Positions 6,763 through 28,946 of a stretch of DNA of 64,000 nucleotides are shown in pieces. Every line of letters begins with the position of its first letter. The stretch's first letter is position 1. The notes under the pieces are model-generated. The model was not told the origin of the DNA. It searched no databases and saw only the letters and a list, made by a program, of their open reading frames with translations. Source of the DNA: Colwellia sp. M166 (GTDB taxonomy: Bacteria > Pseudomonadota > Gammaproteobacteria > Enterobacterales > Alteromonadaceae). Where the stretch lies: positions 868,001 to 932,000 of the forward strand of contig NZ_CP040755.1 in the NCBI RefSeq assembly GCF_024585285.1. The letters are read 5' to 3'. Position numbers and translations under genes: made by a program.

Positions 6763-6941
6763 TATATTGTTGAAAATTTAGTCACAATAACAAGATGACC
6801 TAAGTTTTTACCTTTTACTATAAAAAAGTTGCAAGTAACTGTTTCAAAGTTAGTCAATATTCGTAACAATGGGTTAAGGTAGATGATTACACTTCATACC
6901 GAAACAATGACCATATTCATTAACTTTTAAAAGACACCACT

Positions 6942-8826: not shown

Positions 8827-8871
8827 AGCGTGTTAGTTACTAATCTCAAACAAGTATCAAACTAGCACGCT
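8827..8871. terminator. Possible shared hairpin terminator between yfbR and the DUF1835 gene
   Basis: The arms AGCGTGTTAGTT (8827-8838) and AACTAGCACGCT (8860-8871) pair with one mismatch across a 21-nt loop. The site lies between convergent genes and overlaps the last codons of the minus-strand gene. There is no strong T run on the plus side. Confidence 0.45.
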
Positions 8872-9617
8872 GAGTTATTTATTAACCGCTCAAACATCTG
8901 TTTCACTTGTAGATCACCAAAACTATAAATGCCCTCTCTTGCGGAAAAGCACTGAAAAATCACACTAAATTCTGTGCTATCTAACTCAGCAGCAATCGCG
9001 AGTAATTGACGCTCAGGATAGCCTAAACCGTTTTTATCCGGTGTACGACGTAAATGCGCCTTAATAGCGGGCAATAAAAAGGGATAAATATCAGTTAACT
9101 CTCTCGCAACAGCGAGCATAGTGTCAACATCATTTTGCTGATACAAGGGCCAAAGTTTGGCTAAAGATACTAATGGCTGCGACAACAATTTTTGCTTATT
9201 TTGATAAGCAAGTTGTAGCTCTGACTCAGTCATATTAGCAAAGCTATATTCGTTACCAGCACTGGGGCGCACTAAATAAATATTATTCTGGTGGCCATTT
9301 TTCATCAGTAAGTTAATAACAAACCAAAAATTAATCTGACAAAATAAGTCATCCTCAAACCAACAAATTATTTGGCTGCCTATGGCAATATGAGCAATTT
9401 TATCAATTTCAACCGCGGCAATGTCATAATACCCTGCAAAGGTACAACCTTGATATTGCGCCGTAAAAGCAGCTCTATTGGCATAAAATTCGCTAAGTGT
9501 TGCACCTTGCACATTACCATCAATTAAACATTCCCTCATTACAATAACTTCTGCTTTAACAATATCTTTTAGCTGATACTTTAAACAATCACCATTGAGA
9601 ATATGTACTTGTTTCAT
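8862..9617 (-). CDS. DUF1835 domain protein
   Basis: The 251-residue protein begins with the DUF1835 signature VHILNGDCLKYQL and has MRECLIDG and CWFEDDLFCQINFWFVINLL in the order expected of the family. The C-terminal half carries RRTPDKNGLGYPERQLLAIA, typical of the DUF3658 region that often follows DUF1835. The biochemical role is unknown. There is no signal peptide, so it is probably cytoplasmic. It stands alone between convergent and divergent neighbours. Confidence 0.8.
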   Translation of the reverse strand: MKQVHILNGDCLKYQLKDIVKAEVIVMRECLIDGNVQGATLSEFYANRAAFTAQYQGCTFAGYYDIAAVEIDKIAHIAIGSQIICWFEDDLFCQINFWFVINLLMKNGHQNNIYLVRPSAGNEYSFANMTESELQLAYQNKQKLLSQPLVSLAKLWPLYQQNDVDTMLAVARELTDIYPFLLPAIKAHLRRTPDKNGLGYPERQLLAIAAELDSTEFSVIFQCFSAREGIYSFGDLQVKQMFERLINNSAC

Positions 9618-11138: not shown

Positions 11139-11432
11139 AACTAACATAGACACATCGCCATAAAAAAAAGCAAAAGAACAAATTAAGGGTATAATTATTA
11201 ATTAAAGGAGGTAGATTTTGAGCTCGGCTACTTGTAACACCTAGCTCACTGCAGAATTGTTTAGTGTGGCTGTAAGCAGTGTACAAGATACACTCCAATA
11301 ATAAGCTACAGTAGCTCAGAGCTTATCTGACAGTTACTCAATTTTTAAGGTCTTTTGTCAGCTTAGACTTTAGCGACTACCTTTCAGGTATTCTTTTGTC
11401 GAATAATGCTATTACTTGACAAAAATAAATCC

Positions 11433-11515
11433 ATATAACCTCTTCAAGCGACTGATAATTTTTGGCTAGAATAGAAAGGAACGAATGACAGCCAACTGCT
11501 TGCAGTCCGTTATTC
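11433..11515 (-). other. attC-like site after the first GNAT gene
   Basis: Read on the minus strand the site runs from R''-like GAATAAC (11515-11509) to R'-like GTTATAT (11439-11433). Inner arms GACTG / CAGTC and GTTGGCT / AGCCAA pair around a loop of about 22 bases. It starts 7 bases beyond the stop codon of the minus-strand GNAT gene, as expected for a cassette. Confidence 0.6.
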
Positions 11516-11521
11516 CATGTT

Positions 11522-12025
11522 TCATTCGCTAGCAAACTGAACCGACATCGCTAGTTTTTCAATTCCATGTGACGGAGTCCACCTTCTAAATTCAAGAAAA
11601 CCATGTTTTTTGTACAAATTAATTGCCGGCTTATTAACAACAGCTGTTTCTACTATTGCAACTTTAATAACAAATGCTTTTAGAACATAGTTTATCAATT
11701 TGTCTGCGATGCCTTTCCTAAAATACATTGGATCTACAGTTAAACTATGAATGTCTAAATGTTTTTCATTAATTTTTATTTCAATAATTGCTGCGAGACA
11801 ATTATTATCACTAAAACCATAAAAATCAGTTTTCGAATTGACTATGTCTCTAACACTCCGTAATAGAGGTGGAAAATCAAGCACGCCAATAAGCTGAGCT
11901 TCAACTTTGTAAGAGTTTTGAAAAATAGTATGAATTTGATCAGCAACAATTTCATTTGAACTTTCAAGTTTGGTTATCATACTGCGACTTGCCTCAAGAC
12001 TTGCATTGCTATCTAACACTCCCAT
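11522..12025 (-). CDS. GNAT-family N-acetyltransferase (integron cassette gene)
   Basis: The protein of about 167 residues has the GNAT core: the strand LDIHSLTVDPMYFRKGIADKLINYVL (acetyl-CoA-binding pattern near residue 95) and the C-terminal AINLYKKHGFLEFRR. The substrate cannot be told. The ATG at 12025 lies inside the R' box (GTTAATG) of the preceding attC-like site. The in-frame ATG at 11980 (MITKLESSNE) would start nearer the usual family start and may be the true one. It occupies one cassette between hairpins at 11433 and 12023. Confidence 0.8.
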   Translation of the reverse strand: MGVLDSNASLEASRSMITKLESSNEIVADQIHTIFQNSYKVEAQLIGVLDFPPLLRSVRDIVNSKTDFYGFSDNNCLAAIIEIKINEKHLDIHSLTVDPMYFRKGIADKLINYVLKAFVIKVAIVETAVVNKPAINLYKKHGFLEFRRWTPSHGIEKLAMSVQFASE

Positions 12026-12104
12026 TAACAAGCTTTAAAATTGTTGGTTAAAGTGTATGAGGAAAATAGCCAACTGTATTTTTTCGCTTTAAGTTCTTGT
12101 ATGG
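12023..12104 (-). other. attC-like site between the two GNAT cassettes
   Basis: On the minus strand the outer arms ACAAGAACTTAAAG and TTTAAAGCTTGT pair, as do the inner arms CAGTTGGCTA and TAACCAAC. The site ends in GTTAATG. It sits directly after the second GNAT gene's stop codon (12110). Confidence 0.55.
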
Positions 12105-12109
12105 ATAAT

Positions 12110-12541
12110 TTACACAAACCTACACATACCATGACCTAGAGAGTTGTTTGGTCGCAATACATAGCCATAACGAGTATAAAAAATTTCTTTTCCTTTTGCT
12201 GCTAACAGTCCGACAGTAGACCCCTTTTTCGCTGTAACTGATAAATATTTTTCTATTTGTTCCATTAAAGCAGAGCCAATAGCAGAATTTTGATAACTTG
12301 GAGCAACAATAACATCTTGAATATAAAAATACATTGCTCCGTCACCAACTATGCGCCCCATACCAATTAGTTTAGTTTTATCGCGGACAGTGACGTGAAA
12401 CAAAGAATTATTTAAGCTAATTTTAGCTAAATTGAAATCTAACTGCCCCCAGCCAATTTGAGCCCTTAAATTTATAAACTCTTCAACTGAGGGGCTTTCT
12501 AGCTTGATAAAATACTTATTAGAATCCACGGCTATCTCCAT
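12110..12541 (-). CDS. GNAT-family N-acetyltransferase (integron cassette gene)
   Basis: The protein of about 143 residues starts at MEIAVDSNKYFIKL. The acetyl-CoA motif is IQDVIVAPSYQNSAIGSALMEQI near residue 80, and the C-terminal FYTRYGYVLRPNNSLGHGMCRFV is characteristic of small GNAT enzymes. The upstream 41 codons of open frame run through the attC-like hairpin and are not protein-like, so the ATG at 12541 is preferred. The gene fills the space between two attC-like sites and is a typical single-gene cassette. Substrate unknown. Confidence 0.83.
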   Translation of the reverse strand: MEIAVDSNKYFIKLESPSVEEFINLRAQIGWGQLDFNLAKISLNNSLFHVTVRDKTKLIGMGRIVGDGAMYFYIQDVIVAPSYQNSAIGSALMEQIEKYLSVTAKKGSTVGLLAAKGKEIFYTRYGYVLRPNNSLGHGMCRFV

Positions 12542-12545
12542 TAAT

Positions 12546-12640
12546 CCTAGCCTCATTAAGAGGCGAGAATTCGTTGGTAAAAATAAGCGACGAAGGAGCA
12601 AAAACCAACAGTTATTGTTCCTTTTGAGTAACTTGATATG
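12546..12640 (-). other. attC-like site upstream of the second GNAT gene
   Basis: On the minus strand the arms ACTGTTGG / CCAACGA and CTCAAAAGG / CCTCTTAATGAG pair around a loop (TTTTTGCTCC...). The loop and arms are almost the same as in the site at 15558-15655, including the palindrome GCCTCTTAATGAGGC at the R' side. Confidence 0.55.
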
Positions 12641-12944: not shown

Positions 12945-13028
12945 CATTTTCAACAAAAGCTTTACTGGCAAATCATCGACAAAACAATACTTAAACGTAT
13001 TAATTTACTCGATACAACGCTTTGCTAA
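12945..13028 (+). pseudogene. Relic of toxin YoeB
   Basis: Immediately after the yefM stop the frame reads QQKLYWQIIDKTILKRIN, which matches the YoeB core (LYWQ..DKKILKRIN). The YoeB N-terminus and the C-terminal catalytic part are missing, and the frame ends in TAA at 13026-13028. There is no start codon. The downstream sequence belongs to a higA relic on the other strand. Confidence 0.6.
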
Positions 13029-13084
13029 GCGGAAAACAATGGTTGGCTATAATCGCGATGCGGTGGATTATAATGCATACTCAT
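13025..13084 (-). pseudogene. N-terminal relic of antitoxin HigA
   Basis: On the minus strand ATG 13084 overlaps the higB stop (TAATG) and reads MSMHYNPPHRDY, the usual HigA beginning (NPPHPG type). The frame then stops at 13027-13025. The Xre-type helix-turn-helix domain is gone. Confidence 0.55.
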
Positions 13085-13110: not shown

Positions 13111-14375
13111 TGACGTGGTTTAATGGATTCGACTACCCCAGTTAAGACATAATAACCTTAACTGGAGAACATAAATGACAAAACGTAAAAAATACACCAA
13201 AGAGTTTAAACTTGATGCAATTTCTTTAGTCAGAGATCAAAATATTAGTGTATCTGAAGCGAGCAGAAATCTAGGTATTGGAAATCAAATGCTTGGCCGC
13301 TGGATCAAAGAAGCAGAACAAGAAGATGGTCAAGCTTTTCGAGGTAACGGTAAGCTAACACCTGATCAAGAAGAAATACGTAAATTAAAAGCCCAAGTAA
13401 AGCGCCTGGAGATGGAGCGTGAGATATTAAAAAAAAGCGACGGTCTTCTTTGCAAAAGAAACGAAGTGAAATATTCGTTTATTACCCATCATAAGAAGAT
13501 CTGGCCTGTGGTACTTATGTGCCGAATATTGGGTGTAAAAAGCAATAACTATTATAGTTATCAAAAGCGTAAATTAGATAAGCCAAGTGATTCAACACAC
13601 CAAGAGATGCTTGAGTTAGTAAAGGATATTGCCAAATTTAGTGACAATACCTATGGCGAAAGACGTATTAAAGCGGTACTGAATGCGTTGAGTTTCCGCG
13701 TAAGCCGATGGACAGTAGCCAAATTAATGAAAGAGGCTAATGTTTGGGTTCGTTACAAAAAGAAATATAAAGCAACAACCAATAGCAATCACAATAAGCC
13801 GCTTTATAAAAATGAGCTTGAGCAAAATTTCATCACAGAGCAGCCAAATCAAGTGTTTGTTGGTGATATCACTTATATTTGGACTGCGGAAGGTTGGCTC
13901 TATTTAGCGGTTGTTATCGACCTATACGCTCGCAAAGTTGTTGGCTGGAGCATGGGGTCAAGAATGAAAGCTCAACTTGTCTGTGATGCACTAACGATGG
14001 CTGTTTGGCAAAGAAGCCCAGAGAAAGGACTTATTGTTCATTCCGATCAAGGTGTTCAATATGCAAGCCACCAGTACCGAAAATTACTTAATAACAATGG
14101 CTTTATTGGCAGTATGAGTAAAAAGGGCTGCTGTTGGGATAATGCCGTTGCTGAAAGCTTCTTTGGTAGCCTAAAGCAAGAGCGTGTTCATTGGAGAAAT
14201 TATGAAACACGCTATGAAGCGCAACAAGATATAATGAATTACATAACCATGTGGTACAACAGTAAGCGACTACACTCTTACTTAGGGTATCAAAGCCCAA
14301 ATGATTTTGAATTAAAAATTAATGAGTTAGAAAAAGTAGCTTAACTAGGGTGACTGAATTTACTTGACCAGGTCA
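13111..14375 (+). mobile_element. IS3-family insertion sequence, copy a (1265 bp)
   Basis: Ends are TGACGTGGTTTAATGGATTC on the left and ...ACTTGACCAGGTCA on the right, imperfect inverted repeats. A 3-bp duplication AAT flanks it (13108-13110 and 14376-14378). It is nearly identical to the inverted copy at 16515-17778 but one base longer: the A tract at the orfA-orfB junction is A8 here and A7 there. It interrupts the higB gene near its 3' end. Confidence 0.92.
13175..14344 (+). CDS. IS3-family transposase, OrfA and OrfB fused in frame
   Basis: The 389-residue protein combines an N-terminal helix-turn-helix OrfA (about residues 1-95, with MTKRKKYTKEFK and the leucine-zipper-like KLKAQVKRLEMEREILKK) and an OrfB with the rve DDE catalytic domain. 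Visible acidic motifs are VGDITYIW, HSDQGVQYAS and DNAVAESFFGSLKQE. Normally the fusion is made by -1 frameshifting on the A tract. Here an extra A (A8) puts both parts in one frame, so fusion transposase would be made constitutively and free OrfA would not be made by normal decoding. Confidence 0.9.
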   Translation: MTKRKKYTKEFKLDAISLVRDQNISVSEASRNLGIGNQMLGRWIKEAEQEDGQAFRGNGKLTPDQEEIRKLKAQVKRLEMEREILKKSDGLLCKRNEVKYSFITHHKKIWPVVLMCRILGVKSNNYYSYQKRKLDKPSDSTHQEMLELVKDIAKFSDNTYGERRIKAVLNALSFRVSRWTVAKLMKEANVWVRYKKKYKATTNSNHNKPLYKNELEQNFITEQPNQVFVGDITYIWTAEGWLYLAVVIDLYARKVVGWSMGSRMKAQLVCDALTMAVWQRSPEKGLIVHSDQGVQYASHQYRKLLNNNGFIGSMSKKGCCWDNAVAESFFGSLKQERVHWRNYETRYEAQQDIMNYITMWYNSKRLHSYLGYQSPNDFELKINELEKVA

Positions 14376-15537: not shown

Positions 15538-15557
15538 GAACTGAACTCTCCTTGTAC

Positions 15558-15655
15558 ATATAGCCTCATTAAGAGGCAACAAAATAGTTGGTTAAAATAA
15601 GCGATGAATGAGCAAAAACCAACTGTTTTTTGTCCTTTTGAATGACTTGATATAT
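15558..15655 (-). other. attC-like site between parDE and the DUF6624 gene
   Basis: On the minus strand arms CAGTTGG / CCAACTA and TTCAAAAGGAC / GTTGCCTCTTAATGA pair around a 28-base loop, ending GAGGCTATAT. This last box equals the GAGGTTATAT of the site at 11433 except for one T to C change. The sequence is closely related to the site at 12546-12640, with only the outermost bases differing. Confidence 0.58.
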
Positions 15656-15704
15656 TTTTTATACCATAATATATTATATATAGGTACTTATGGGGTTTCA
15701 TATC

Positions 15705-15944
15705 ATGGCTAAAAACACAAGCGTAACATTAGGTGATCATTTTGATCAGTTTATAAAACAACAACTTAACACTGGTCGTTATGGCTCAGCAAGTGAAGTT
15801 GTTAGAGCTGGATTAAGAGTGTTAGAAGATCAAGAAGCTAAACTTTTAAACTTACGCAATATGCTAATCCAAGGCGAACAAAGCGGCGTTATCGATTACA
15901 GCTATGAAAATTTGTTGATTGAGCTAGATAAAAATAACCATTAA
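15705..15944 (+). CDS. parD: ParD-family antitoxin
   Basis: The 79-residue protein MAKNTSVTLGDHFDQFI has the ribbon-helix-helix fold of ParD, with GRYGSASEVVRAGLRVLEDQE in the DNA-binding part. It represses its own promoter and neutralises ParE through its C-terminal tail. ATG 15705 is preferred over an in-frame ATG 15 bases upstream because GGGG precedes it at a suitable distance. parE starts within its stop (TAATG), indicating translational coupling. It reads against the array direction, and an AT-rich promoter-like region lies at 15655-15690. Confidence 0.92.
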   Translation: MAKNTSVTLGDHFDQFIKQQLNTGRYGSASEVVRAGLRVLEDQEAKLLNLRNMLIQGEQSGVIDYSYENLLIELDKNNH

Positions 15945-16258
15945 TGAATAAATTTTTACTGTCTTCGAAAGCCAAAATAGATTTAATTAAAATAGCTAGA
16001 TATAGCCAATTAACTTGGGGAATACCTCAACGGAACGATTACCTAAAAGTATTAGATAGCACATTTCAGCTGTTAGCTAATGAACCCGAGTCAGGGCTCA
16101 ATTGTGATTACATTAGAGAGGGCTACAGCAAATATTCACAAGCTAGCCATGTGATTTATTACAAAAAGTATAAAAACAACCAAATTTTTATAGTGCGTAT
16201 ATTACATAAAAGTATGGACGTTAACACCGCACTCAAGAAAAATATAACGAGCCTGTAG
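15944..16258 (+). CDS. parE: ParE-family toxin
   Basis: The 104-residue ParE (RelE/ParE fold) poisons DNA gyrase in characterised members. Visible pattern: KAKIDLIKIARYSQLTWG, then FQLLANEPESGLNCDYIREGY, then HVIYYKK and IVRILHKSMD. The start overlaps the parD stop by one base. Both genes appear intact, unlike the two other toxin-antitoxin pairs in the array. The 3' end overlaps the R' arm of the next attC-like site. Confidence 0.92.
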   Translation: MNKFLLSSKAKIDLIKIARYSQLTWGIPQRNDYLKVLDSTFQLLANEPESGLNCDYIREGYSKYSQASHVIYYKKYKNNQIFIVRILHKSMDVNTALKKNITSL

Positions 16259-16290: not shown

Positions 16291-16545
16291 AAATACTCTA
16301 ACTGGATTATTTTCTTTTAACAATCAAAAACGTTTACGTTTTTGGCGGTTTTAATTTTTCCATTCCTAAGCATGAATAATGACTGGTTTTTACTTGTTTT
16401 TGTCTTTTGAGGTTATTTTAGTGGCAATAGACAAGGGTTTTACCTTTAATGCAGGTTGTCTCTTAACTTTTCAATGTTATGAACAAGGCAATACATTGGC
16501 CATTGGGTGTTCACTGACCTGGTCAAGTAAATTCAGTCACCCTAG

Positions 16546-17424
16546 TTAAGCTACTTTTTCTAACTCATTAATTTTTAATTCAAAATCATTTGGGCTTTGA
16601 TACCCTAAGTAAGAGTGTAGTCGCTTACTGTTGTACCACATGGTTATGTAATTCATTATATCTTGTTGCGCTTCATAGCGTGTTTCATAATTTCTCCAAT
16701 GAACACGCTCTTGCTTTAGGCTACCAAAGAAGCTTTCAGCAACGGCATTATCCCAACAGCAGCCCTTTTTACTCATACTGCCAATAAAGCCATTGTTATT
16801 AAGTAATTTTCGGTACTGGTGGCTTGCATATTGAACACCTTGATCGGAATGAACAATAAGTCCTTTCTCTGGGCTTCTTTGCCAAACAGCCATCGTTAGT
16901 GCATCACAGACAAGTTGAGCTTTCATTCTTGACCCCATGCTCCAGCCAACAACTTTGCGAGCGTATAGGTCGATAACAACCGCTAAATAGAGCCAACCTT
17001 CCGCAGTCCAAATATAAGTGATATCACCAACAAACACTTGATTTGGCTGCTCTGTGATGAAATTTTGCTCAAGCTCATTTTTATAAAGCGGCTTATTGTG
17101 ATTGCTATTGGTTGTTGCTTTATATTTCTTTTTGTAACGAACCCAAACATTAGCCTCTTTCATTAATTTGGCTACTGTCCATCGGCTTACACGGAAACTC
17201 AACGCATTCAGTACCGCTTTAATACGTCTTTCGCCATAGGTATTGTCACTAAATTTGGCAATATCCTTTACTAACTCAAGCATCTCTTGGTGTGTTGAAT
17301 CACTTGGCTTATCTAATTTACGCTTTTGATAACTATAATAGTTATTGCTTTTTACACCCAATATTCGGCACATAAGTACCACAGGCCAGATCTTCTTATG
17401 ATGGGTAATAAACGAATATTTCAC
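16546..17424 (-). CDS. IS3-family OrfB (DDE integrase domain)
   Basis: The 292-residue OrfB carries the rve domain with VGDITYIW, HSDQGVQYAS and DNAVAESFFGSLKQE. It is identical in sequence to the second part of the fused transposase of copy a. Its start overlaps the orfA end by 4 bases, as is usual in the family. The functional transposase is the OrfAB frameshift product. Confidence 0.9.
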   Translation of the reverse strand: MKYSFITHHKKIWPVVLMCRILGVKSNNYYSYQKRKLDKPSDSTHQEMLELVKDIAKFSDNTYGERRIKAVLNALSFRVSRWTVAKLMKEANVWVRYKKKYKATTNSNHNKPLYKNELEQNFITEQPNQVFVGDITYIWTAEGWLYLAVVIDLYARKVVGWSMGSRMKAQLVCDALTMAVWQRSPEKGLIVHSDQGVQYASHQYRKLLNNNGFIGSMSKKGCCWDNAVAESFFGSLKQERVHWRNYETRYEAQQDIMNYITMWYNSKRLHSYLGYQSPNDFELKINELEKVA

Positions 17425-17714
17425 TTCGTTTCTTTTGCAAAGAAGACCGTCGCTTTTTTTAATATCTCACGCTCCATCTCCAGGCGCTTTACTTGGGCTT
17501 TTAATTTACGTATTTCTTCTTGATCAGGTGTTAGCTTACCGTTACCTCGAAAAGCTTGACCATCTTCTTGTTCTGCTTCTTTGATCCAGCGGCCAAGCAT
17601 TTGATTTCCAATACCTAGATTTCTGCTCGCTTCAGATACACTAATATTTTGATCTCTGACTAAAGAAATTGCATCAAGTTTAAACTCTTTGGTGTATTTT
17701 TTACGTTTTGTCAT
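17421..17714 (-). CDS. IS3-family OrfA (helix-turn-helix)
   Basis: The 97-residue OrfA carries the N-terminal helix-turn-helix and ends LKKATVFFAKETK after the A7 tract. OrfB begins just before the stop. A -1 shift on the A7 tract would give the OrfAB fusion with the junction LKKSDGLLCKRNE, which is exactly the sequence encoded in frame by copy a. Confidence 0.88.
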   Translation of the reverse strand: MTKRKKYTKEFKLDAISLVRDQNISVSEASRNLGIGNQMLGRWIKEAEQEDGQAFRGNGKLTPDQEEIRKLKAQVKRLEMEREILKKATVFFAKETK

Positions 17715-18204
17715 TTATGTTCTCCAGTTAAGGTTATTATGTCTTAACTGGGGTAGTCGAATCCATTAAACCACGTCACACTTTATCTTGTCCTAGCAAG
17801 GTGAATTTATTCATGCCTTTATTAATGGTGATATTACCAAATACCGGCTCTATTGCACCTAACCTTTTACTGTATTACCGTCGCCCAATTGAACTGTCTA
17901 TTTTTATCTTTATTTGCTCGCTATGACTAATATGTTGCACCTTAGTTGCTAAGAACTGTACTTGCCGGCCCGTTGCTTTTGGTGCCTTTCGCATACATTG
18001 TTTTTGTAAGGGACAAACGCGACAATCTTTTAAATAGCCAGTAAAGCGGCTATAGCTTTTACCATCGGTGATAATTGTACCTTGTCGCTAAAGGGTTTTG
18101 CCCGCTGAACAAACACAGGTATTGGTTGTGGGGTAAAAATGAAAACTCTCGCACGTGAATAATCGAGGCCGGTCTTTATTGCCGACAGGCTCTGCCACTA
18201 TCGG

Positions 18205-18700: not shown

Positions 18701-18705
18701 TACAG

Positions 18706-18800
18706 CCTCAACGCTTTGCAACGACGGTAAATTGAGTTGGCTATAATTGAGCGAAGCGAAAAGCCAGCGTAAATTTATCCGTTGATTGCACTTGTTATCT
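18706..18800 (-). other. attC-like site after the 18853 gene
   Basis: On the minus strand it runs from AGATAAC to GTTGAGG. Arms CAACGGATAAATTTA / AATTTACCGTCGTTG and GCTGGCT / AGCCAAC pair around the loop TTTCGCTTCGCTCAATTAT. It lies between the stop of the 18853-19164 gene and the next site. Confidence 0.6.
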
Positions 18801-19669: not shown

Positions 19670-20644
19670 CTAGGCGAGTAATTTATTACAAGCAGAGAGT
19701 GTCGTTCGCCGACTAAGTGCTTGATGCTGACAAAAATCATTCAGCACATCAGCATGACCCACAGCACCATGAAAGCTTTTGGTAAATTGTGTGGTCAATA
19801 TTAACCAGTTTTCAGCACTGATATTCAATCGTGTCAATATATCTGGTTGAACATCTTCTATATATCCACACTTATCTGCACGAATACATCGGCCAGTGAC
19901 TTCAATCAGCTCGATATAATCATTAAGATTAAAGATAAGCCCTTTCGTTTTATCTTTATGTGCATTACCTACAAAATGTAAAAGGTTGTAAGGTTGTGTA
20001 CCTTTTATCGCCGCTTTAATACGTCGTCGAATACTGGTATAGGCGGATTTTTCTGGGGTGGCTGCTATTTTAGCTCTAACGGGATTTAAATCTACATAGG
20101 CCATACAGGCAATAATAGCGGCGTCATCAAGTAAAGCTTGTGATTTAAAGCGCCCTTCCCAAAAACGACCCGTGCAATTATCTTCCACATTCGCTTTTCG
20201 TGCGATACCTTCGTTAAGTAGGCGCATAAACCAACTGATATCCGTTAATCGCTGTCGATACACTTCGGCGGTTTGTTCAACTATCGTTTTTAATGGCTCG
20301 ATAAGTTCATCACCACGCACATATTGCTGGGTTAACAAGGTGCCTTTGAACAATTGATGCCAACGATTAATCACCTCAAACGTTGACCAAGACTGCCCTT
20401 TATCTTCATCCACATAAAGCACCAAATGACTGTGATTGCTCATCACCGCATAAGCGCACACATCAATGGCAAACACTGAGCCTAAGAATAACAACTTATC
20501 CTCAACCCAAGCCCGTCGGTGTTCAAAACTTTGACCCGTAGCTTTATCTTCACCGCATAAAAAAGCCCGACGAACACAGCGTGAAATGCAGTGATAATAA
20601 GGTGTATCGATTAAACTGACTTGTCTTTTTCTTGCAACAGCCAT
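19670..20644 (-). CDS. Y1 (HUH) transposase of REP-associated (RAYT) type
   Basis: The 324-residue protein has the HUH motif in MSNHSHLVL near residue 70, NRWHQLF, and the conserved block TGRFWEGRFKSQALLDDAAIIACMAYVDLNPVRA near residues 165-195, which is standard for Y1 transposases of the REP-associated group. These enzymes nick single-stranded DNA at hairpins and are usually single-copy and domesticated-looking. It has no visible IS ends. The association with an array rich in hairpin sites is notable, but nothing shows that it acts on them. Confidence 0.85.
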   Translation of the reverse strand: MAVARKRQVSLIDTPYYHCISRCVRRAFLCGEDKATGQSFEHRRAWVEDKLLFLGSVFAIDVCAYAVMSNHSHLVLYVDEDKGQSWSTFEVINRWHQLFKGTLLTQQYVRGDELIEPLKTIVEQTAEVYRQRLTDISWFMRLLNEGIARKANVEDNCTGRFWEGRFKSQALLDDAAIIACMAYVDLNPVRAKIAATPEKSAYTSIRRRIKAAIKGTQPYNLLHFVGNAHKDKTKGLIFNLNDYIELIEVTGRCIRADKCGYIEDVQPDILTRLNISAENWLILTTQFTKSFHGAVGHADVLNDFCQHQALSRRTTLSACNKLLA

Positions 20645-20798
20645 GCGAACCTCAAATGAACTAAAGGGTGATTATTTAACCATAGTTCAACAGGGGAAAG
20701 TTTTCTATTAGAGTGGATGATGTGATGGACGCTCCCAATTACGGCGTCAATGCGCCAAACTGGTTAAAAACAATCAGTTAATTTAAGGAACGTCCGTC

Positions 20799-21825
20799 AT
20801 GAAAGTTAGCACAATATCAATTGATTTAGCAAAAAACGTTTTTCAACTCATGGGGTTTACTGAGGCTAATAAAGGCGTTTTTAATAAGCGCTTGAACCGC
20901 GCTCAACTGAAGCATTTTATGCAAATGCAACCCCCATGTCGTGTTGTGATGGAGGCCTGTTATTCTTCTCATTATTGGGGCCGGTTGTTTGAATCCATCG
21001 GTCACACTGTGCACTTAATTCCTGCGCAACACGTGACACCTTTTGTGCGAGGAAACAAGAATGACAGTAACGATACACTGGCCATATTCGAAGCAAGTAG
21101 GCGACCTTTCATTCGGTTTGTCCCCATCAAAACCCAAACTCAGCAAGAAACGTTAATGCTACATCGCTTGCGAGAAAGGTTACTTAAAAACACGTACAGC
21201 GGTCACTAATCAACTACGTGGTTTATTAGCTGACATTGGCCTTGTTTTCCCGTTAGGCATACCTGCTTTTAATGAAAGTATGCAAGCATTATCACTTGAT
21301 ACCACGTTATCGGTATCAGTTCAGTGGCTAGTTAACGATGTTTATCAAGAATTCAAAACCTTAAACCTACGTATTAAAGCGATTGAAAAACAATTAAAAA
21401 CTGACATTGAAGCCAATTCATTAGGGCAAATACTATTGAGTATCCCTGGCATTGGTTACCTCAATGCTTCTGCCTTTATTGCCTCAATAGGCAGTGGACA
21501 AGCCTTCACCAGTGCACGCGACTTTGCTGTTTGGCTAGGCATTACACCCAAACAATTTGCCTCAGGCAATAAAAGCGTGATGGGCGGCATCAGTAAACGT
21601 GGAGACCAATACCTGCGTAAACAGCTTATCCATGGTGCGCGTGCCATCATCGTTCATGCCAGAAAGAAACACGATGCATTGAGTGTGTGGATAACCCAGT
21701 TAAGTGCACGAAAACCGTTCAATTGTACCGCGGTTGCCACTGCGCACAAGTTAGCACGCATCATGTGGACATTGTTACAAAAGCAATGCCATTACACGCC
21801 TCAACCGGTTAAGGTAATCACATGA
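20799..21825 (+). pseudogene. IS110-family transposase, frameshifted
   Basis: The first frame (20799-21209) reads MKVSTISIDLAKNVFQLMGF with the DEDD aspartate and GNKNDSNDTLAIFEA. The second frame ends with the IS110 C-terminal domain (SIPGIGYLNASAFIASIG, then GNKSVMGGISKRGDQYLRK). They join in frame if one A is removed from the A5 run near 21186-21190, giving LKTRTAVTNQLRGLL. The serine of the C-terminal domain is present. IS110 elements lack classical terminal inverted repeats, so the ends were not placed. The element sits between the first cassette gene and the Y1 transposase gene. Confidence 0.82.
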
Positions 21826-22459
21826 TTGACGACCCGTTTTACCCTCTAGTAAGCCTGTGCAGGACAAAGGCCATGAGTCTGTGTGGGTGTTTAGGCTGCT
21901 AGAGGGGACTTAATTTATCCAGAAAACTTTTCAAGACTGTTGTTGATAAGATGAAAAAAAGGCACTAGCCAACTAGAACAAAGCCTGTGAGAGGACAAGT
22001 GTATCTATCACGTTTGGGTGAACAATGTTTTAAGGTATTTCTAGTTCGCAACTTATCTGGAGCATGGATAACAAACCATAGCTCGAATATATGTCAGTAC
22101 AGTTTGCTTTAAGCAAGCGAAAGCGCCTGTCATCATGAACAAAAGTATGAAAAGAGTAATGCTCAGTAATCAAAAACATAAGCCCGTTTTGTTATGTTTT
22201 CGTATTCACTTGGGTTGACATCAAGGAAGCGTCCATATATGTCTTGCTAATTATCTTGCTAATTATTTACTATATTACCAAACTCTGTTTAGTGATAGTA
22301 GCTGCGCTTGGCCTGAAAATCACCGCTTAGAGGCACCGCCAACAGACAACCCATCTTAGTTTTATTTATTTACTTATAAAGAGTACGCACCAACACCGGG
22401 CTTGTTCAACAACAGGATTAAGTTGCGGCTGCGCGCAACCTATCCTTTATTTATTATGT
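21826..22459. other. Non-coding stretch between the IS110 gene and the first cassette gene
   Basis: No gene is seen. CCCTCTAG (21842-21849) and CTAGAGGG (21899-21906) form an inverted repeat, and AAGCCTGTG occurs at 21851 and 21981, which may be parts of the IS110 end. A strong hairpin (GGATTAAGTTGCG / CGCAACCTATCC, 22415-22445) lies just beyond the stop of the 22460 gene. It could be that gene's terminator or part of its recombination site. Confidence 0.4.
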
Positions 22460-22738
22460 TTACTTTGTATCGTGTAAGTAATTTGCAATATGCTCAGAGC
22501 GTATTGCAAATTTTTCGATTAAATCTTCTTTGTAACTTACTTCATAGTTTGGGTATAAATCATCAACTACAACAGTAATCGCTTCAGAGAAGTGCTCACC
22601 ATCTAGTTGAGTACCTAGAGTAGAAAATACATTTTTTAATGCCGAATGGTAGCGTTCATCATCACAAGGATGATATGTATGCCAAGTATCAACTTGTAAC
22701 CATGGCATTAATAACTCAATTAATTTTTCCATATTCAT
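22460..22738 (-). CDS. Hypothetical protein, first gene of the integron array
   Basis: The 92-residue protein MNMEKLIELLMPWLQVDTWH is soluble and acidic, with HPCDDERYHSALKNVFSTLG and AITVVVDDLYPNYEVSY. AGGAG lies 7 bases before this ATG, so the longer open frame upstream is rejected. No family recognised. It lies directly next to the putative attI, so it occupies the position of the most recently inserted cassette. Confidence 0.65.
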   Translation of the reverse strand: MNMEKLIELLMPWLQVDTWHTYHPCDDERYHSALKNVFSTLGTQLDGEHFSEAITVVVDDLYPNYEVSYKEDLIEKFAIRSEHIANYLHDTK

Positions 22739-22755
22739 TGGAATACTCCTTGTAA

Positions 22756-22762
22756 ACATAAC
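22756..22762 (-). other. Putative attI recombination point (GTTATGT)
   Basis: On the minus strand GTTGTTATGTTTAC lies between intI and the first cassette gene, 18 bases before that gene's start. The core GTTATGTTT equals the R' end of the attC-like site at 18556-18700. The position (about 220 bases from the intI start) and orientation fit an attI site. Other attI features were not resolved. Confidence 0.5.
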
Positions 22763-22920
22763 AACTTTATCAGAGGACACTTTCCTCTTTTCCTACCAGA
22801 AAGTTTCCACCTTATTTATTTAACCTATTAATAACAAATCTTTGCAGCTATTACTACACATTGTCTGTAGTTCTGGTTATTAATTTATCATCGTATGAAA
22901 TGAAGAAACTTTCCCATTTC

Positions 22921-22962
22921 TTGACTTGGGAGGAAACCCAGCAATACTGTATATAAAAACAG
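22921..22962 (+). promoter_or_regulatory. intI promoter with overlapping LexA box
   Basis: TTGACT (22921-22926) and TACTGT (22945-22950), 18 bases apart, form a promoter. The 16-mer CTGTATATAAAAACAG at 22947-22962 differs from the gammaproteobacterial LexA consensus CTGTATATATATACAG at only two central positions and overlaps the -10 box. SOS control of integron integrases through LexA is established for Vibrio cholerae and class 1 integrons. Here the same control appears to have been present. Confidence 0.8.
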
Positions 22963-23232
22963 CATTCAAGGGTAAATAATATGAAAACAAAATCACCTTT
23001 TCTTAATAGTGTTGTCGAGTATATGTACAGTCTGCATATTCTCATGCATCGCGATCACCTAATACCATCTAAGCCGATCACTTAATACTATCCATCGCGA
23101 TCACTCAATACCATCGATGCAGATCACTTTTTGGTCAAAATGGTATTGAGTGATCGGCTTGAATGGTATCGTTCAATTTATACTCATTTTTGTCTATCCA
23201 GTAGGTGTTTCTAACCGTTATTCTTTTCATTT

Positions 23233-24795
23233 TTGATGATGAGAATAACCATGCCAACGGCACCTATTTCAATGCGTAAACTTAAAGAGATTTTAAGACT
23301 AAAATACGACTGTAAACTCAGTCATCGAAAGATAGCAAACAGCTTATCTATTTCACCTTCAATTGTTTCTAAATATGCCTGTAAATCAGCAGAGTTAGGT
23401 ATCACTTGCTGGCCGCTTGATGAAAAATGGGATGATCATTCTCTGCAACGAGCATTCTTCAAAACAAAGCCCCGACTAAAAGGCTTTAGTATTCCTGACT
23501 GGTTGTTAGTTCAGCAGGAGCTGCGACCCAAAACCATGACGCTATTGCTGCTTTGGCAAGAATACAAAGAGCGACACGAGGAAGGATTTTACAGTTACAC
23601 CCACTTCTGCCGACAGTACAAGGCATGGCTTAAATGTCAAAAACCGTCCATGCGACAAAACCATAAAGCAGGTGAAAAACTGTTTGTTGATTACTGCGGC
23701 CCAACTATGAATATTGTTGATGCTAGTACAGGTGAATACCGTACAGCTCAAGTGTTTGTCGCAGTTATGGGCGCATCTAATTATACGTATGCGGAGGCAA
23801 CGTATAGCCAAAAGCTAGAAGATTGGGTGATGAGTCATGCTCGCTGTTTTGAGTTTCTTGGTGGTGTGCCAGAGCTGGTAATCCCTGACAACTTAAAAAG
23901 TGCGGTAACTAAACCTTGTCGATATGAGCCTGATTTAAATCCAACCTACCAACAATTGGCGACACATTATGATACGGTCATTGTGCCTGCTAGACCTTAT
24001 AAGCCCAAGGATAAAGCCAAAGCAGAAGTGGGTGTGCAAATTGTCGAACGCTGGATAATGGCACGGCTTCGCAATGAAAGCTTCTTTAGCTTGCGCCAAT
24101 TAAACCTAAAGATACAAAAACTGCTTGTCGACTTAAACCAGCGGAAAATGAAGAAGCACCCTGGTTCAAGGCTCAGTCAGTTTGAATCCATTGATAAACC
24201 TGCTCTCAAACCACTACCCACACAGGCTTACAGTTACACCTTAGTCAAACAAGTAAGCGTGCATATTGATTATCATGTCGAAGTTGAAAAACACTACTAC
24301 TCAGTACCTCATACCTTGATCAAACAAAAGCTTGAAGCCCATGCCACAGGTCAACTGGTGACACTTTACCATCAGGGTGTTCAAGTAGCCGTTCACCCAA
24401 GATCACACCGAGAAGGTGCACACACCACGCTTGATCTACATATGCCAATAGCTCATCAAAAGCAGCAGCAATGGTCACCACAACGGTTCGAACGTTGGGC
24501 AGCTAAGTTCGGTGGTTCAACGGAGCAGTTTGTTATGCAATTGATGCAAGCTAAAAAGCATCCAGAGCAAAGCTACCGTGCTTGTATGGGGTTATTAAGC
24601 CTAGGTAAGAAGTTTACTGACCAACGTCTTGAAGCAGCCTGTCATCGCGCATTAGCCACAGGTGTTACTCGCGTAAAACAAGTAAAAAACATTTTAGAAA
24701 AGGGCTTGGATAAGCAACCCTTGCCACAAGCTCAAGGTGATTTACTACAAGATATTGATCATAAAAATATCCGCGGCAACAACTATTACCATTAA
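23233..24795 (+). CDS. istA: IS21-family transposase IstA
   Basis: The 520-residue protein has an N-terminal helix-turn-helix (LRLKYDCKLSHRKIANSLSIS) and an rve DDE domain with acidic residues in LFVDYCGPT, VPELVIPDNLKSA and KDKAKAEVGVQIVERW. The C-terminal Mu-type barrel includes HYYSVPHTLI. It catalyses strand transfer with the IstB helper. The true start may be the ATG at 23251, because several in-frame starts precede it. Intact. Confidence 0.95.
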   Translation: MMMRITMPTAPISMRKLKEILRLKYDCKLSHRKIANSLSISPSIVSKYACKSAELGITCWPLDEKWDDHSLQRAFFKTKPRLKGFSIPDWLLVQQELRPKTMTLLLLWQEYKERHEEGFYSYTHFCRQYKAWLKCQKPSMRQNHKAGEKLFVDYCGPTMNIVDASTGEYRTAQVFVAVMGASNYTYAEATYSQKLEDWVMSHARCFEFLGGVPELVIPDNLKSAVTKPCRYEPDLNPTYQQLATHYDTVIVPARPYKPKDKAKAEVGVQIVERWIMARLRNESFFSLRQLNLKIQKLLVDLNQRKMKKHPGSRLSQFESIDKPALKPLPTQAYSYTLVKQVSVHIDYHVEVEKHYYSVPHTLIKQKLEAHATGQLVTLYHQGVQVAVHPRSHREGAHTTLDLHMPIAHQKQQQWSPQRFERWAAKFGGSTEQFVMQLMQAKKHPEQSYRACMGLLSLGKKFTDQRLEAACHRALATGVTRVKQVKNILEKGLDKQPLPQAQGDLLQDIDHKNIRGNNYYH

Positions 24796-24823
24796 TCAAA
24801 ACTAACAAACCAAAGGAAATCTT

Positions 24824-25588
24824 ATGCAAAATATCAATCAACAAGTCAATAACCAGTTAAGTAACTTAAAGCTAAGCGGTATACGTGATGCACTATTGCA
24901 GCAATATGAGCAACCCAATCTCTACGTTGAACAAAGCTTCGAAGAGCGACTAAGCTTATTGCTTGACCATGAAATAACTCAGCGTGATCAGCGTAAAATT
25001 GACCGCCTAACTCGACAAGCAAAGTTCAGAGTTGGCGGTACGCTTGCTCAACTCAACTATGGCGCAGCACGACAACTAGATAAAACTCAGATCCGTTCAT
25101 TAGCACAAGGTGAATGGCTACGCCTTCACCAAAACATTTTGATCACGGGAGCAACGGGGTGTGGCAAAACTTACCTCGCTTGTGCTCTTGGTCAAAACCA
25201 CTGCCAACAAGGGAGTAGCGTTTATTATTTTAGGCTTAAAGAGCTATTAGAAAAGATGTTCTTAGCGCAAGCCGATGGTAGTTATCGAAAACTGATCAAC
25301 AAGCTTAGCTCTGCCAATTTACTGATCCTAGATGATTGGGGATTAGAGCCATTAACAGCTCAACAACGCAGTGATTTACTGGAATTAATTGATGCGAGAT
25401 ATGACACAAAATCGACCTTAATTGCCAGCCAATTACCGATAGAAAATTGGTATGAAATGATCGGAGAATCGACACATGCTGATGCGATCCTAGATCGGCT
25501 TGTTCACGGAGCAATAAAGTTGGAATTAAAAGGCGAATCGATGCGAAAAAAACTAAATTCCTTGACTGATGGCGATCACTCAAGTTAG
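24824..25588 (+). CDS. istB: IS21-family helper ATPase IstB
   Basis: The 254-residue AAA+ ATPase has Walker A (GATGCGKTYLACAL near residue 111) and Walker B (LLILDDWGLEPL near residue 170). It assembles IstA on DNA and selects targets. It lies 28 bases after istA, the standard arrangement. Intact, so this copy may still be able to move. Confidence 0.95.
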   Translation: MQNINQQVNNQLSNLKLSGIRDALLQQYEQPNLYVEQSFEERLSLLLDHEITQRDQRKIDRLTRQAKFRVGGTLAQLNYGAARQLDKTQIRSLAQGEWLRLHQNILITGATGCGKTYLACALGQNHCQQGSSVYYFRLKELLEKMFLAQADGSYRKLINKLSSANLLILDDWGLEPLTAQQRSDLLELIDARYDTKSTLIASQLPIENWYEMIGESTHADAILDRLVHGAIKLELKGESMRKKLNSLTDGDHSS

Positions 25589-26592
25589 ATTTTACTAAGG
25601 TCTACTGGCAGACAAAAAAGTGATCGGCTTGAATAGTATTGACCGATCGGCTTCATGATATTACGCACAGTCATCATTATGCAAAAAAATCTATTGAAAC
25701 TTATATTGGTTGGATCGCGGCATACATTAACTTTCATAATAAGCGTCACCCTGCTTCTATGGGTAATAATGAAGTTGAACTCTTTTTGAATCATTTAGTT
25801 ATCACTAAAAATGTAGCCTCACGAACACAGACAACTGCGCTTAATTCGTTAGTTTTCTTATATAAACACATACTACAGAGTGAATTATCTTTAGATCTGA
25901 ATTTTATAAAAAGTAGTCGGCAGAAAAAATTACCTATCGTGCTAACACAATCTGAAATATCACAGATAATACAACAGTTAAGTAAGCGTAATCTTTTAGT
26001 TGTTAGCTTATTATATGGCAGTAGGCTGCGTCTCATGGAAGCGGTGAAATTACGTGTTCAAGATATCGATTTCGATTATAAATGCATTCGTATTTGGAAT
26101 GGAAAAGGCAACAAACATCGTATCGTAACCTTAGCGCAAGAGTTAATACCGGCATTGAGAAATCAAATTTGTCAAGTTGATGAATATTTACAGTTAGATT
26201 TAATAAATGAGATGTATGCTGGTGTTTGGATGCCTCATAAGCTGAGCAAGAAATACCCTAAGGCTAATAAGTCCGTGCAATGGCAATTTATATTTCCATC
26301 CTATCAACTCAGCGCAGACCCGGAAACAGGAGAAATAAGAAGGCATCACTTTGATCATTCAGGTATACGAAAGGCCATTAAGTCAGCTACGTTAAAAGCG
26401 GGTATTAATAAGCTCGTAACACCGCATACTTTTCGTCATTCTTTTGCCACACACTTATTACAAAGTGGCGCAGATATTAGAACGGTACAAACACAGCTGG
26501 GACATAGTGACGTAAGAACAACACAAATTTACACCCATGTGTTGCAACAAGGTGCTAACGGGGTTACTAGCCCGCTAAGTTATTTATTATGA

Positions 26593-26832: not shown

Positions 26833-26909
26833 TGGCGGAGTGGACGGGACTCGAACCCGCGACCCCCGGCGTGACAGGCCGGTATTCTAACCAACTGAAC
26901 TACCACTCC
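26833..26909 (-). tRNA. tRNA-Asp (GUC), copy 1 of 5
   Basis: A 77-base cloverleaf is seen with 5' GGAGTGG and 3' CCACTCCG followed by encoded CCA. The D arm has AGTTCAGTTGGTTAG, the anticodon loop is CTGTCAC (anticodon GUC), and the T arm carries GGTTCGAGTCC. It is very close to E. coli tRNA-Asp. This is the last copy in transcription order. Confidence 0.97.
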
Positions 26910-26952
26910 GCGTATTTATTTTGAGTTTAAGGACTCGTTCCTTTGAAACAAT

Positions 26953-27029
26953 TGGCGGAGTGGACGGGACTCGAACCCGCGACCCCCGGCGTGACAGGCC
27001 GGTATTCTAACCAACTGAACTACCACTCC
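26953..27029 (-). tRNA. tRNA-Asp (GUC), copy 2 of 5
   Basis: The 77 bases are the same as in copy 1, including anticodon GUC and encoded CCA. The spacer to copy 1 (43 bases) differs from the spacers between copies 2-5, which are nearly identical to each other. Confidence 0.97.
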
Positions 27030-27081
27030 ACACATCTTGCTTCTGTAAATTTTTAAAAGGACTTACAACCTTTGAAACAAT

Positions 27082-27158
27082 TGGCGGAGTGGACGGGACT
27101 CGAACCCGCGACCCCCGGCGTGACAGGCCGGTATTCTAACCAACTGAACTACCACTCC
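27082..27158 (-). tRNA. tRNA-Asp (GUC), copy 3 of 5
   Basis: Identical 77-base gene. Together with its 52-base spacer it forms a 129-base unit repeated between copies 2 and 5, so the array probably grew by tandem duplication. Confidence 0.97.
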
Positions 27159-27210
27159 ACACATCTTGCTTCTATAAATTTTTAAAAGGACTTACAACCT
27201 TTGAAACAAT

Positions 27211-27287
27211 TGGCGGAGTGGACGGGACTCGAACCCGCGACCCCCGGCGTGACAGGCCGGTATTCTAACCAACTGAACTACCACTCC
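27211..27287 (-). tRNA. tRNA-Asp (GUC), copy 4 of 5
   Basis: Identical 77-base gene. Its left spacer differs by a single base (ctataaa for ctgtaaa) from the equivalent spacer on its right. Confidence 0.97.
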
Positions 27288-27339
27288 ACACATCTTGCTT
27301 CTGTAAATTTTTAAAAGGACTTACAACCTTTGGATTAAT

Positions 27340-27416
27340 TGGCGGAGTGGACGGGACTCGAACCCGCGACCCCCGGCGTGACAGGCCGGTATTCTAACCA
27401 ACTGAACTACCACTCC
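27340..27416 (-). tRNA. tRNA-Asp (GUC), copy 5 of 5
   Basis: Identical 77-base gene and the first in transcription order. Proximity of tRNA-Asp to dnaQ is also seen in E. coli (aspV beside dnaQ), so this looks like conserved synteny with local amplification. Confidence 0.97.
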
Positions 27417-27590: not shown

Positions 27591-28946
27591 TTAACGTTTT
27601 TTACCACGCATTACGATAAACATCAGCACAGCAATCATGATCACTAAGGTATTTCCAGCAATAATATACCATAAGGTTTCTTGTTGCTTTTCGGCAATTT
27701 TTGCTTCTTGTGCTATTTTTACTTGCATTAACTCTTGTTTCAGCTTTTCGGCTGCCATTTCGGCATTTTCAATCGCTTGAGCACTTTTTGACCCTGATGT
27801 TAATTTATTATCGCCATTGAGCGAAGGAACTAAAGGCCCACCTACTCGCTCAACATTAAAACTAAACTCAGGTACGGTTGCTCTAAACTCTCTACCATTA
27901 GTTGTTTCACCAAATACGTTTATTTTTATTCTATGCACCCCTGGCTCAGTATAGGCAATATCATAAGTTCGACTTAAGCCTTTGCCTTCCATCACAGAAA
28001 AGGACTCGACTTGTTTATCAGGAAATGTGACTTTACCTTGAATTAAAATGCTGTCCGCGTTAACAAAGCTGTCATTGATAGCAAATGTAACAATATGAGC
28101 ACTATTTTCATCTTGAGTTGTTTCTACCGATATTGTGATGGGGTTTTTCCGAACTACAATAGGTGTTTGTCGAAGTTCTCTGGTTGCCATCGGCATTTTG
28201 ATAATATAAATAGGTTCCCATTCTCCCGGTGCAAAGTCTAACTCAAACTCTCCTGTAAATAAGCTATCGTTCGCATGTTCATCCAAGTCTCTACCGTCAT
28301 CTCTAAACGATGTTAGCTTGATTGGCTCAGCACCAAAGTTATAAAAATCAGCATTGTTGGTACTAAAAAAGTCAACATCGAGTATTAACACTTCATTAAA
28401 TAAAGGGTTATCAATAGCAATATCACCGTTGAATAACCGCCCTTCCATTTTTAACGTTTCCCCTTGTAATACAATATCAGGTAATGGTGTCACTTCTAAT
28501 CGGATCTCCGAAATCACCATAATTTTGCTATTAGGCTGTACCTCACCTATCACTTGCCATGGGCCAATCATGGGTGATTTTATTTTGATCATGTCGTAAG
28601 TGCGATCATCAAACCATTGCACTTTATCTTTAGGCAAATTATTTATTTTCAGTTTTGAGCCATCTGGGCGCACAAGAATAACGGGTTGAGTACCGCTGCG
28701 ACGATAAAATAACAGTGTTATTTCTTCAAGTTGCTCATCAATACGAAAGCGGTTGTCAAAGTAAGGAATTTGGTTAGTAATATTATCGCCAGCGTAATAA
28801 TCAATTTCAGCAGGTATTTGTTGAGCATTAATATGTAAGCTGATTACTAACACAGCTATTATGCTAAATAAATGTACGCTAAATAGTGTTTGTTTTTTAC
28901 ATACCTTAACTGTTGTCGTTATCTTTGACGCTTTTATTTTTTCCAT
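27591..28946 (-). CDS. TIGR03503 family membrane protein
   Basis: The 451-residue protein has an N-terminal signal or anchor segment (about residues 21-41, ending NAQQ), a long periplasmic beta-rich part with VRPDGSKL, GPWQVIGEVQP and HRIKINVFGET, a short coiled coil (QAIENAEMAAEKLKQELMQVK), and a C-terminal membrane helix (LWYIIAGNTLVIMIAVLMFIV) followed by RGKKR. It resembles the conserved TIGR03503 family of marine gammaproteobacteria, function unknown. Its start overlaps the dnaQ 3' end by 13 bases, so it is probably the second gene of a dnaQ operon. Confidence 0.75.
   Translation of the reverse strand: MEKIKASKITTTVKVCKKQTLFSVHLFSIIAVLVISLHINAQQIPAEIDYYAGDNITNQIPYFDNRFRIDEQLEEITLLFYRRSGTQPVILVRPDGSKLKINNLPKDKVQWFDDRTYDMIKIKSPMIGPWQVIGEVQPNSKIMVISEIRLEVTPLPDIVLQGETLKMEGRLFNGDIAIDNPLFNEVLILDVDFFSTNNADFYNFGAEPIKLTSFRDDGRDLDEHANDSLFTGEFELDFAPGEWEPIYIIKMPMATRELRQTPIVVRKNPITISVETTQDENSAHIVTFAINDSFVNADSILIQGKVTFPDKQVESFSVMEGKGLSRTYDIAYTEPGVHRIKINVFGETTNGREFRATVPEFSFNVERVGGPLVPSLNGDNKLTSGSKSAQAIENAEMAAEKLKQELMQVKIAQEAKIAEKQQETLWYIIAGNTLVIMIAVLMFIVMRGKKR

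Follow-up and report, generated by a model that had tools for sequence, protein, structure and literature searches.

An IS21-family insertion splits the integrase gene of a chromosomal integron in Colwellia sp. M166, whose chromosome carries a second, uninterrupted integron integrase

What becomes of a chromosomal cassette array when its own integrase gene is interrupted by an insertion sequence (IS), while a second integron lies in the same chromosome? The question is raised by a 64,000-nucleotide stretch of Colwellia sp. M166 (the window, G000:C1:868001-932000), part of a genome, G000, assembled as one contig of 4.84 Mb. Here an IS21-family element stands inside an integron integrase gene, intI-A, next to a cassette array (array A), and elsewhere in the chromosome a second complete integron has its own integrase gene, intI-B, and array (array B). 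We hold it highly probable that the insertion cost the array-A integron its own integrase, and that whatever cassette movement remains there depends on IntI-B. Coordinates are collected in Table 1.

The element has the attributes that define IS21 elements, namely TG...CA termini, repeated end sequences and a target duplication of 4-8 bp, here 5 bp; it holds open istA and istB genes and is annotated as ISShfr5-like. Ten full copies occur in the genome with 0-5 differences from the window copy (three are identical, the window copy counted), besides one full-length copy at 91% identity and other, partial ones. An exact 5-bp duplication borders nine of these ten copies, all except L107 (the flanks of L103 and L106, both among the nine, are identical). 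Thus the CAGTC pair is a signature of the element, and a chance 5-mer can be ruled out. In 16 other genomes of the genus, no full copy is among the matches listed (up to 17 per genome), and one genome, G013, has a 147-bp match. Copies with about 90% DNA identity are found on a Pseudoalteromonas plasmid and an Alteromonas plasmid (two of four plasmid records matched). As near-identical copies are numerous here and full ones were listed nowhere else in the genus, the element is evidently young, a recent arrival that multiplied, which agrees with the age given to it in a preliminary description of this DNA on the grounds of its exact duplication and intact genes.

Two further observations concern its copies. 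Five of the ten (L102-L106) have 1-nucleotide insertions that shorten or split istA, and these are possibly assembly errors. Another copy (G000:C1:941033-943668; L102, L122), about 9 kb beyond the window, stands between pieces of a different tyrosine-recombinase gene.

Removal of the element and one CAGTC joins the flanks into 972 nucleotides with a single terminal stop, an unbroken frame of 323 residues as first described. Its initial 17 residues all recur at the start, there uninterrupted, of the Cognaticolwellia aestuarii gene (17/17; locus L019), the closest integron integrase among named genomes (85%), although that gene is itself broken further downstream. The L019 contig is the reverse complement of G001:C17, so the genome G001, of the same genus, is C. 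aestuarii. The host of the window can accordingly be called Cognaticolwellia-like, a member of a marine group. The identification of the gene is independent of the join, since the 317-codon frame after the element scores 450 bits against the integron integrase model TIGR02249 (cut-off 265; model positions 4-314), compared with 158 bits for XerD (cut-off 330) and 143 bits for XerC (cut-off 335). These scores rule out a XerC/D or phage integrase. The same frame aligns with the Vibrio cholerae IntI structure 2A3V in a single block of equal length (residues 7-315 on 11-319, 385 bits), which shows that the IntI-specific insertion in the catalytic domain is present. What distinguishes the post-insertion frame from 2A3V is its N-terminus, where IS sequence replaces the native residues, and one conserved glycine.

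The statement that all catalytic motifs are present needs qualification at this glycine. The Arg, His-x-x-Arg, His and Tyr residues stand in invariant alignment columns, whose catalytic roles we take as given. However, two residues before the catalytic Arg, intI-A alone has Arg, where all 117 distinct relatives have Gly (112/112 in a motif count); the alignment covers this position in 129 loci of 130, the exception being L140, which is truncated. This change, unremarked in the preliminary description, is a probable second lesion besides the insertion.

Array A is, as far as gene order and site models tell, a genuine sedentary chromosomal integron of about 11.4-22.8 kb, though an eroded one. 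The integrase gene is on the plus strand, with the attC sites on the minus strand to its left and an attI region aligned in between, so that intI-A is directed away from the array. Several related attC sites lie between the cassettes; five are complete (54-100 bits) and fall under one covariance model with those of array B and of relatives. That model was built from 11 sites of arrays A and B, the five window sites included, and an nhmmer search with one array-B site alone finds all six window sites, the truncated one among them, at E <0.1. A strict attC box scan gave six window matches, none of them attC by the later model, its useful match being in array B (L119:16359-16455). The GTT core is kept in three of the five window sites, five of six in array B and 57 of 63 in other genomes of the genus, counts taken from the best 74 of 97 matches; the other 23 are weak (E 0.02 to 1) and mostly on the opposite strand of the same sites. 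Upstream of intI-A stands a palindrome of the CTG-N10-CAG pattern, which we take to be the LexA consensus, and control of the native promoter by the SOS response is predicted.

The second integron bears directly on the earlier claim that cassette movement is frozen here unless an integrase is supplied from elsewhere, because its uninterrupted gene is in the same chromosome. IntI-B is 57% identical to IntI-A and matches 2A3V with 422 bits over residues 1-319; a LexA box precedes its gene as well. Array B has six attC sites in about 16 kb that belong to the same attC family as those of array A, with 78-90% identity over aligned stretches. Added to this is the precedent of a Vibrio attC (VCR, V. 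cholerae repeat), which is documented to recombine at attI1, a site that belongs to another integron (PMC2727003). Hence the frozen state is not established, and the first array is not necessarily immobile. In this chromosome, as in G007 and G005, intI-B adjoins gcvP, and the IntI-B gene of G001, which has an internal stop, is on a contig other than that of gcvP; thus B may have no single fixed site.

Whether intI-A is truly lost turns on what the insertion left behind. The preliminary description spoke of a knock-out, and the gene is indeed split; however, only 16 N-terminal codons were removed and an in-frame remnant of 317 codons stays open, to which the IS end contributes nine codons from a TTG plus most of a tenth. 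It is conceivable, though in our judgement very improbable, that the IS end re-heads the gene, with start codon and short helix both taken from the IS, and that a shortened IntI-A is still made and active, perhaps from an IS promoter and free of LexA. Several points weigh on that side and against our reading. The remnant spans all catalytic residues, scores 450 bits as an open frame and may retain residual activity, and an AlphaFold2 (AF2) model places a helix at its IS-encoded start (residues 2-12), at low confidence (block-mean predicted local distance difference test, pLDDT, of 59 and 70). Over its C-terminal half the model is weak, two stretches having pLDDT <50. The Gly-to-Arg change, moreover, is seen in one assembly and might be an assembly error, as the 1-nucleotide differences among IS copies may be. 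On the other hand, no ribosome-binding site precedes the TTG, whereas the native ATG has one (both read by eye), a promoter scan of the IS end gave one site against 1.3 expected by chance, and near-invariant N-terminal S, F, L and M residues are gone. With the Arg beside the catalytic residue, these losses make the remnant probably dead; it likely yields no working integrase, and loss of intI-A function is likely. Could the element instead have struck a gene that the Gly-to-Arg change had already disabled? The absence of this Arg from every distinct relative speaks for it. Yet the ratio of non-synonymous to synonymous change (dN/dS) between the A genes of G000 and C. aestuarii is about 0.04, which indicates purifying selection on a gene in use until recently, and the frame is otherwise clean. 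Since the sequence of two recent events is not readable from one genome, we regard a gene dead before the insertion as a doubtful, though not negligible, alternative.

The other question is whether anything now moves the cassettes of array A. IntI-B could act there, which is a candidate role, and we find no sign of recent exchange through it: leaving aside those assigned to IS, the stretches of more than 100 bp that the two arrays share are 75-84% alike, shorter ones reaching 98% over 41 bp. These points count against our reading and lend something to the opposite one, in which neither integrase moves the cassettes, the attC sites being too decayed or the array too filled with IS, and IntI-B does not serve it. 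In its favour, two of the five attC sites are without the GTT core, the first cassette is without a detectable attC, and, apart from IS pieces and short stretches, array A shows no recent sharing with array B. Site density is also low, five in about 11 kb, where L147 and L148 each have 20 in about 13 kb, although L149 also has only five. Against it, three sites keep the core, IntI-B is uninterrupted with its own array of the same attC family, and recombination of VCR sites at attI1 is documented in PMC2727003. We thus consider a truly frozen array unlikely, if worth keeping in view.

We prefer the reading in which array A has lost its own integrase and depends on the other. A newly arrived and multiplying IS21 element inserted just past codon 17 of intI-A, beside the tRNA-Asp cluster, and so in all likelihood deprived a sedentary integron of its integrase, the remnant probably making no working enzyme. 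Any residual cassette movement would then depend on IntI-B acting in trans, and IntI-B could excise those cassettes bounded by attC sites with a normal core.

Table 1 Positions of the features discussed (window coordinates, unless a contig is named)
Feature	Position	Strand	Basis
intI-A, whole, split	22981..26592	+	joined flanks and profile score
intI-A 5' end (17 codons and one base, with one duplication copy)	22981..23032	+	17/17 residues as in C. aestuarii L019 start
LexA-box-like palindrome upstream of intI-A, predicted SOS control	22947..22962	+	CTG-N10-CAG pattern
CAGTC target duplication, left copy	23028..23032	.	read directly
IS21-family element, 2635 bp, TG...CA ends, repeated terminal sequences	23033..25667	+	read directly and genome copies
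istA transposase	23233..24795	+	open frame, NF033546 318 bits (cut-off 160)
istB helper ATPase	24824..25588	+	open frame, NF038214 267 bits (cut-off 200)
CAGTC target duplication, right copy	25668..25672	.	read directly
In-frame remnant, 317 codons, TTG start inside IS right end, IntI-A residue 17 to stop	25639..26592	+	ORF (open reading frame) list, TIGR02249 450 bits
Arg codon at otherwise invariant Gly, two residues before catalytic Arg (residue 129 of 317-residue frame)	26023..26025	+	alignment count
attI region, intI-A to first cassette (limits approximate, by eye)	22765..22946	-	alignment of regions upstream of intI
First cassette ORF, from GTG (true start probably further in)	22460..22780	-	ORF list
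attC, 61.9 bits, GTT core kept	18704..18797	-	covariance model
attC, 100.1 bits, GTT core missing	15554..15652	-	covariance model
attC, truncated, near IS3 copy	13015..13058	-	nhmmer
attC, 83.4 bits, GTT core missing	12541..12638	-	covariance model
attC, 54.3 bits, GTT core kept	12011..12103	-	covariance model
attC, 75.1 bits, GTT core kept, final site of array	11429..11525	-	covariance model
Five tRNA-Asp genes, marker of integron locus common to other genomes of the genus	26833..27416	-	Rfam scan and genus comparison
intI-B, 326 residues, no internal stop	G000:C1:4051716-4052696	-	TIGR02249 465 bits, positions 1-315 of 315

The contents of array A bear out the older relics mentioned in the preliminary description. 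For the ORF of the first cassette (22460-22780), the covariance model gives no attC with E <=1. The 193 bp after this ORF (22267-22459) are identical or nearly so to three array-B pieces and can be read as an IS91-like end; a broken IS110 copy follows. In this region (20708-22459), the IS110-family copy is 99.7% identical to an intact array-B copy but frameshifted, and the 193-bp stretch beside it is also common to pieces adjoining IS91-like genes of array B. Two inverted IS3-family copies (13111-14375 and 16515-17778) are two differences apart; in the former, an extra A in an A-run fuses two frames into a 389-codon transposase, which may be real or an assembly error. Array ORFs include GNAT, ParDE and DUF6624 genes, the ParDE-like toxin-antitoxin pair (15690-16258) being on the strand opposite the attC sites, and no drug-resistance families were named in two scans of 10 ORFs each. 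A gene at 19670-20644 resembles transposases associated with repetitive extragenic palindromes (REP; tyrosine type), at 34 bits and so below the cut-off of 80; similar-looking ORFs occur in the G001 array region (L151, 12679-13515 and 14453-15289). In four attC sites (12541-12638, 15554-15652, L119:19192-19287 and L150:1707-1804) a GGCTA variant replaces the usual GGCGTT core, and these represent either a sub-type or one frequent form of decay.

The same locus can be followed through the genus, of which 17 genomes, G000 included, were compared. Its identity rests on the right side, because the tRNA-Asp cluster and the left border of the array are not conserved together: six of the 16 other genomes have a match to the gene at 8862-9617, which in G010 lies about 757 kb from the tRNA-Asp integrase gene. 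Markers on the right are the tRNA-Asp genes, the gene at 27591-28946 and, where the stretch extends to it, dnaQ; at gathering thresholds, Rfam finds nothing in 9000-30000 besides the five tRNAs. An integron integrase stands beside this cluster in nine genomes, a link not seen in the other eight. Lineage A occupies the site in G000 and G001, and a lineage C, 57-62% identical to A and 70-77% to B, in seven (G014, G011, G008, G010, G002, G005 and G007; in G007 the cluster comes some 1.6 kb after the gene). In a tree of 90 rows (two added to the 88 full frames among 103 loci), the G001 gene is the partner of A (100/98) and B with C forms one clade (100/99); the rows nearest A by path are Pseudoalteromonas and Psychrosphaera genes, reached through an unsupported fork. 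Synonymous divergence (dS) of A between G000 and G001 is 1.9, near saturation, compared with 0.25, 0.38 (B), 0.86 and 0.90 for four other genes of this pair. The two lineages at one site, together with the excess dS of A, suggest that the integrase gene has been exchanged at the tRNA-Asp locus.

Integrases at this locus are also repeatedly broken, in four of the nine genomes and each time by a different lesion, the other five having a full frame. To the IS21 insertion of G000 are added an internal stop in G002; in G001, an internal stop and the loss of 1 nucleotide near the end; and, between two intI pieces of G005, about 1.3 kb of inserted DNA with a REP-transposase-like gene (L146:10312-11286). 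Most of the N-terminal intI part of G005 was not found in the 20-kb stretch L146. Thus, mobile DNA has struck the integrase of this locus at least two times in the genus. The split C-type gene of G005 spans 9850-11611 of L146 (G005:C7:20000-39999), and its insert gene resembles that at 19670-20644 of the window. In G007, an A-like integron (intI at 6930-7928, minus strand, attC sites on plus) seems nested, reversed, in the C-type tRNA-Asp array (L144, G007:C1:4834000-4853999), and an element with integrase-like and replication-like ORFs, roles judged by eye, lies between it and the C-type intI.

Broken genes occur in three of four genomes with two or more intI loci (G000, G001 and G005, but not G007) compared with two of 11 with one (G002 and G006). 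The association is suggestive only (one-sided Fisher p = 0.077, classes assigned by hand, with G009, at a contig edge, and G016, without intI at 1e-60, left out, and with G004 counted as single at E <=1e-60 yet having two matches at the looser 1e-40), and a rule that two-integron genomes lose one integrase is not established. Most intI loci examined have a full frame (88/103); the 15 others include duplicates (L137/L141, L139/L019), the window locus L010, L140 of G005, slight differences at the ends (L041, L051, L067) and one piece at the end of a contig (L143). At 1e-40, TIGR02249 matches occur in 152 of 196 genomes of the family; by a hand count, 47 of these genomes have two or more among the matches listed (up to 10 per genome), some of which may be pieces of one gene.

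Integrase decay and several integrases per genome are already published, and the disruption is by itself an ordinary event of a known kind. A survey by Nemergut et al. (2008, PMC2426708) reports that nearly one third of intI genes are pseudogenes and that 20% of bacteria carry more than one, and describes a pseudogene of one clade alongside a functional gene of another. Our case resembles it in combining an intI pseudogene with multiple intI in one genome; the survey counted internal stops, frameshifts and size changes, whereas the cause here is a young IS insertion. Sedentary chromosomal integrons of Xanthomonas also have intI at a fixed locus with an array and have lost the integrase in some lineages (PMC12444791), IS interruption being stated in the introduction of a Shewanella paper (PMC9229058). 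The present case differs from these in the second integron of the chromosome, whose integrase is uninterrupted, and in the in-frame remnant that the IS left behind. A review correlates loss of LexA control with integrase inactivation (PMC8876359), a pattern from which intI-A, likely inactivated yet with its LexA box kept, departs. As an IS21 element the insertion is ordinary, its landing place being what deserves attention. In the literature searched on Colwellia integron integrases, IS21-interrupted intI and marine or second integrons, we found no description of the present case.

Our analysis thus adds an integrase disrupted in nature by an IS. The attC sites of its array are of the type found in the other integron of the chromosome, where the integrase is uninterrupted, and its locus is one at which four genomes of a single genus broke the integrase in four ways. 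A more speculative idea, which we hold to be rather improbable, is that the tRNA-Asp integron is a platform on which the integrase is swapped between distant lineages, and that, where a second integron has arrived in the genome, its integrase takes over both arrays and leaves the local one free to decay. If true, the genome studied here would show the state just after the hand-over, with one SOS-controlled integrase serving two arrays in trans. The locus makes it testable whether one integrase may serve several arrays in trans, and whether such redundancy could explain the frequency of intI pseudogenes.

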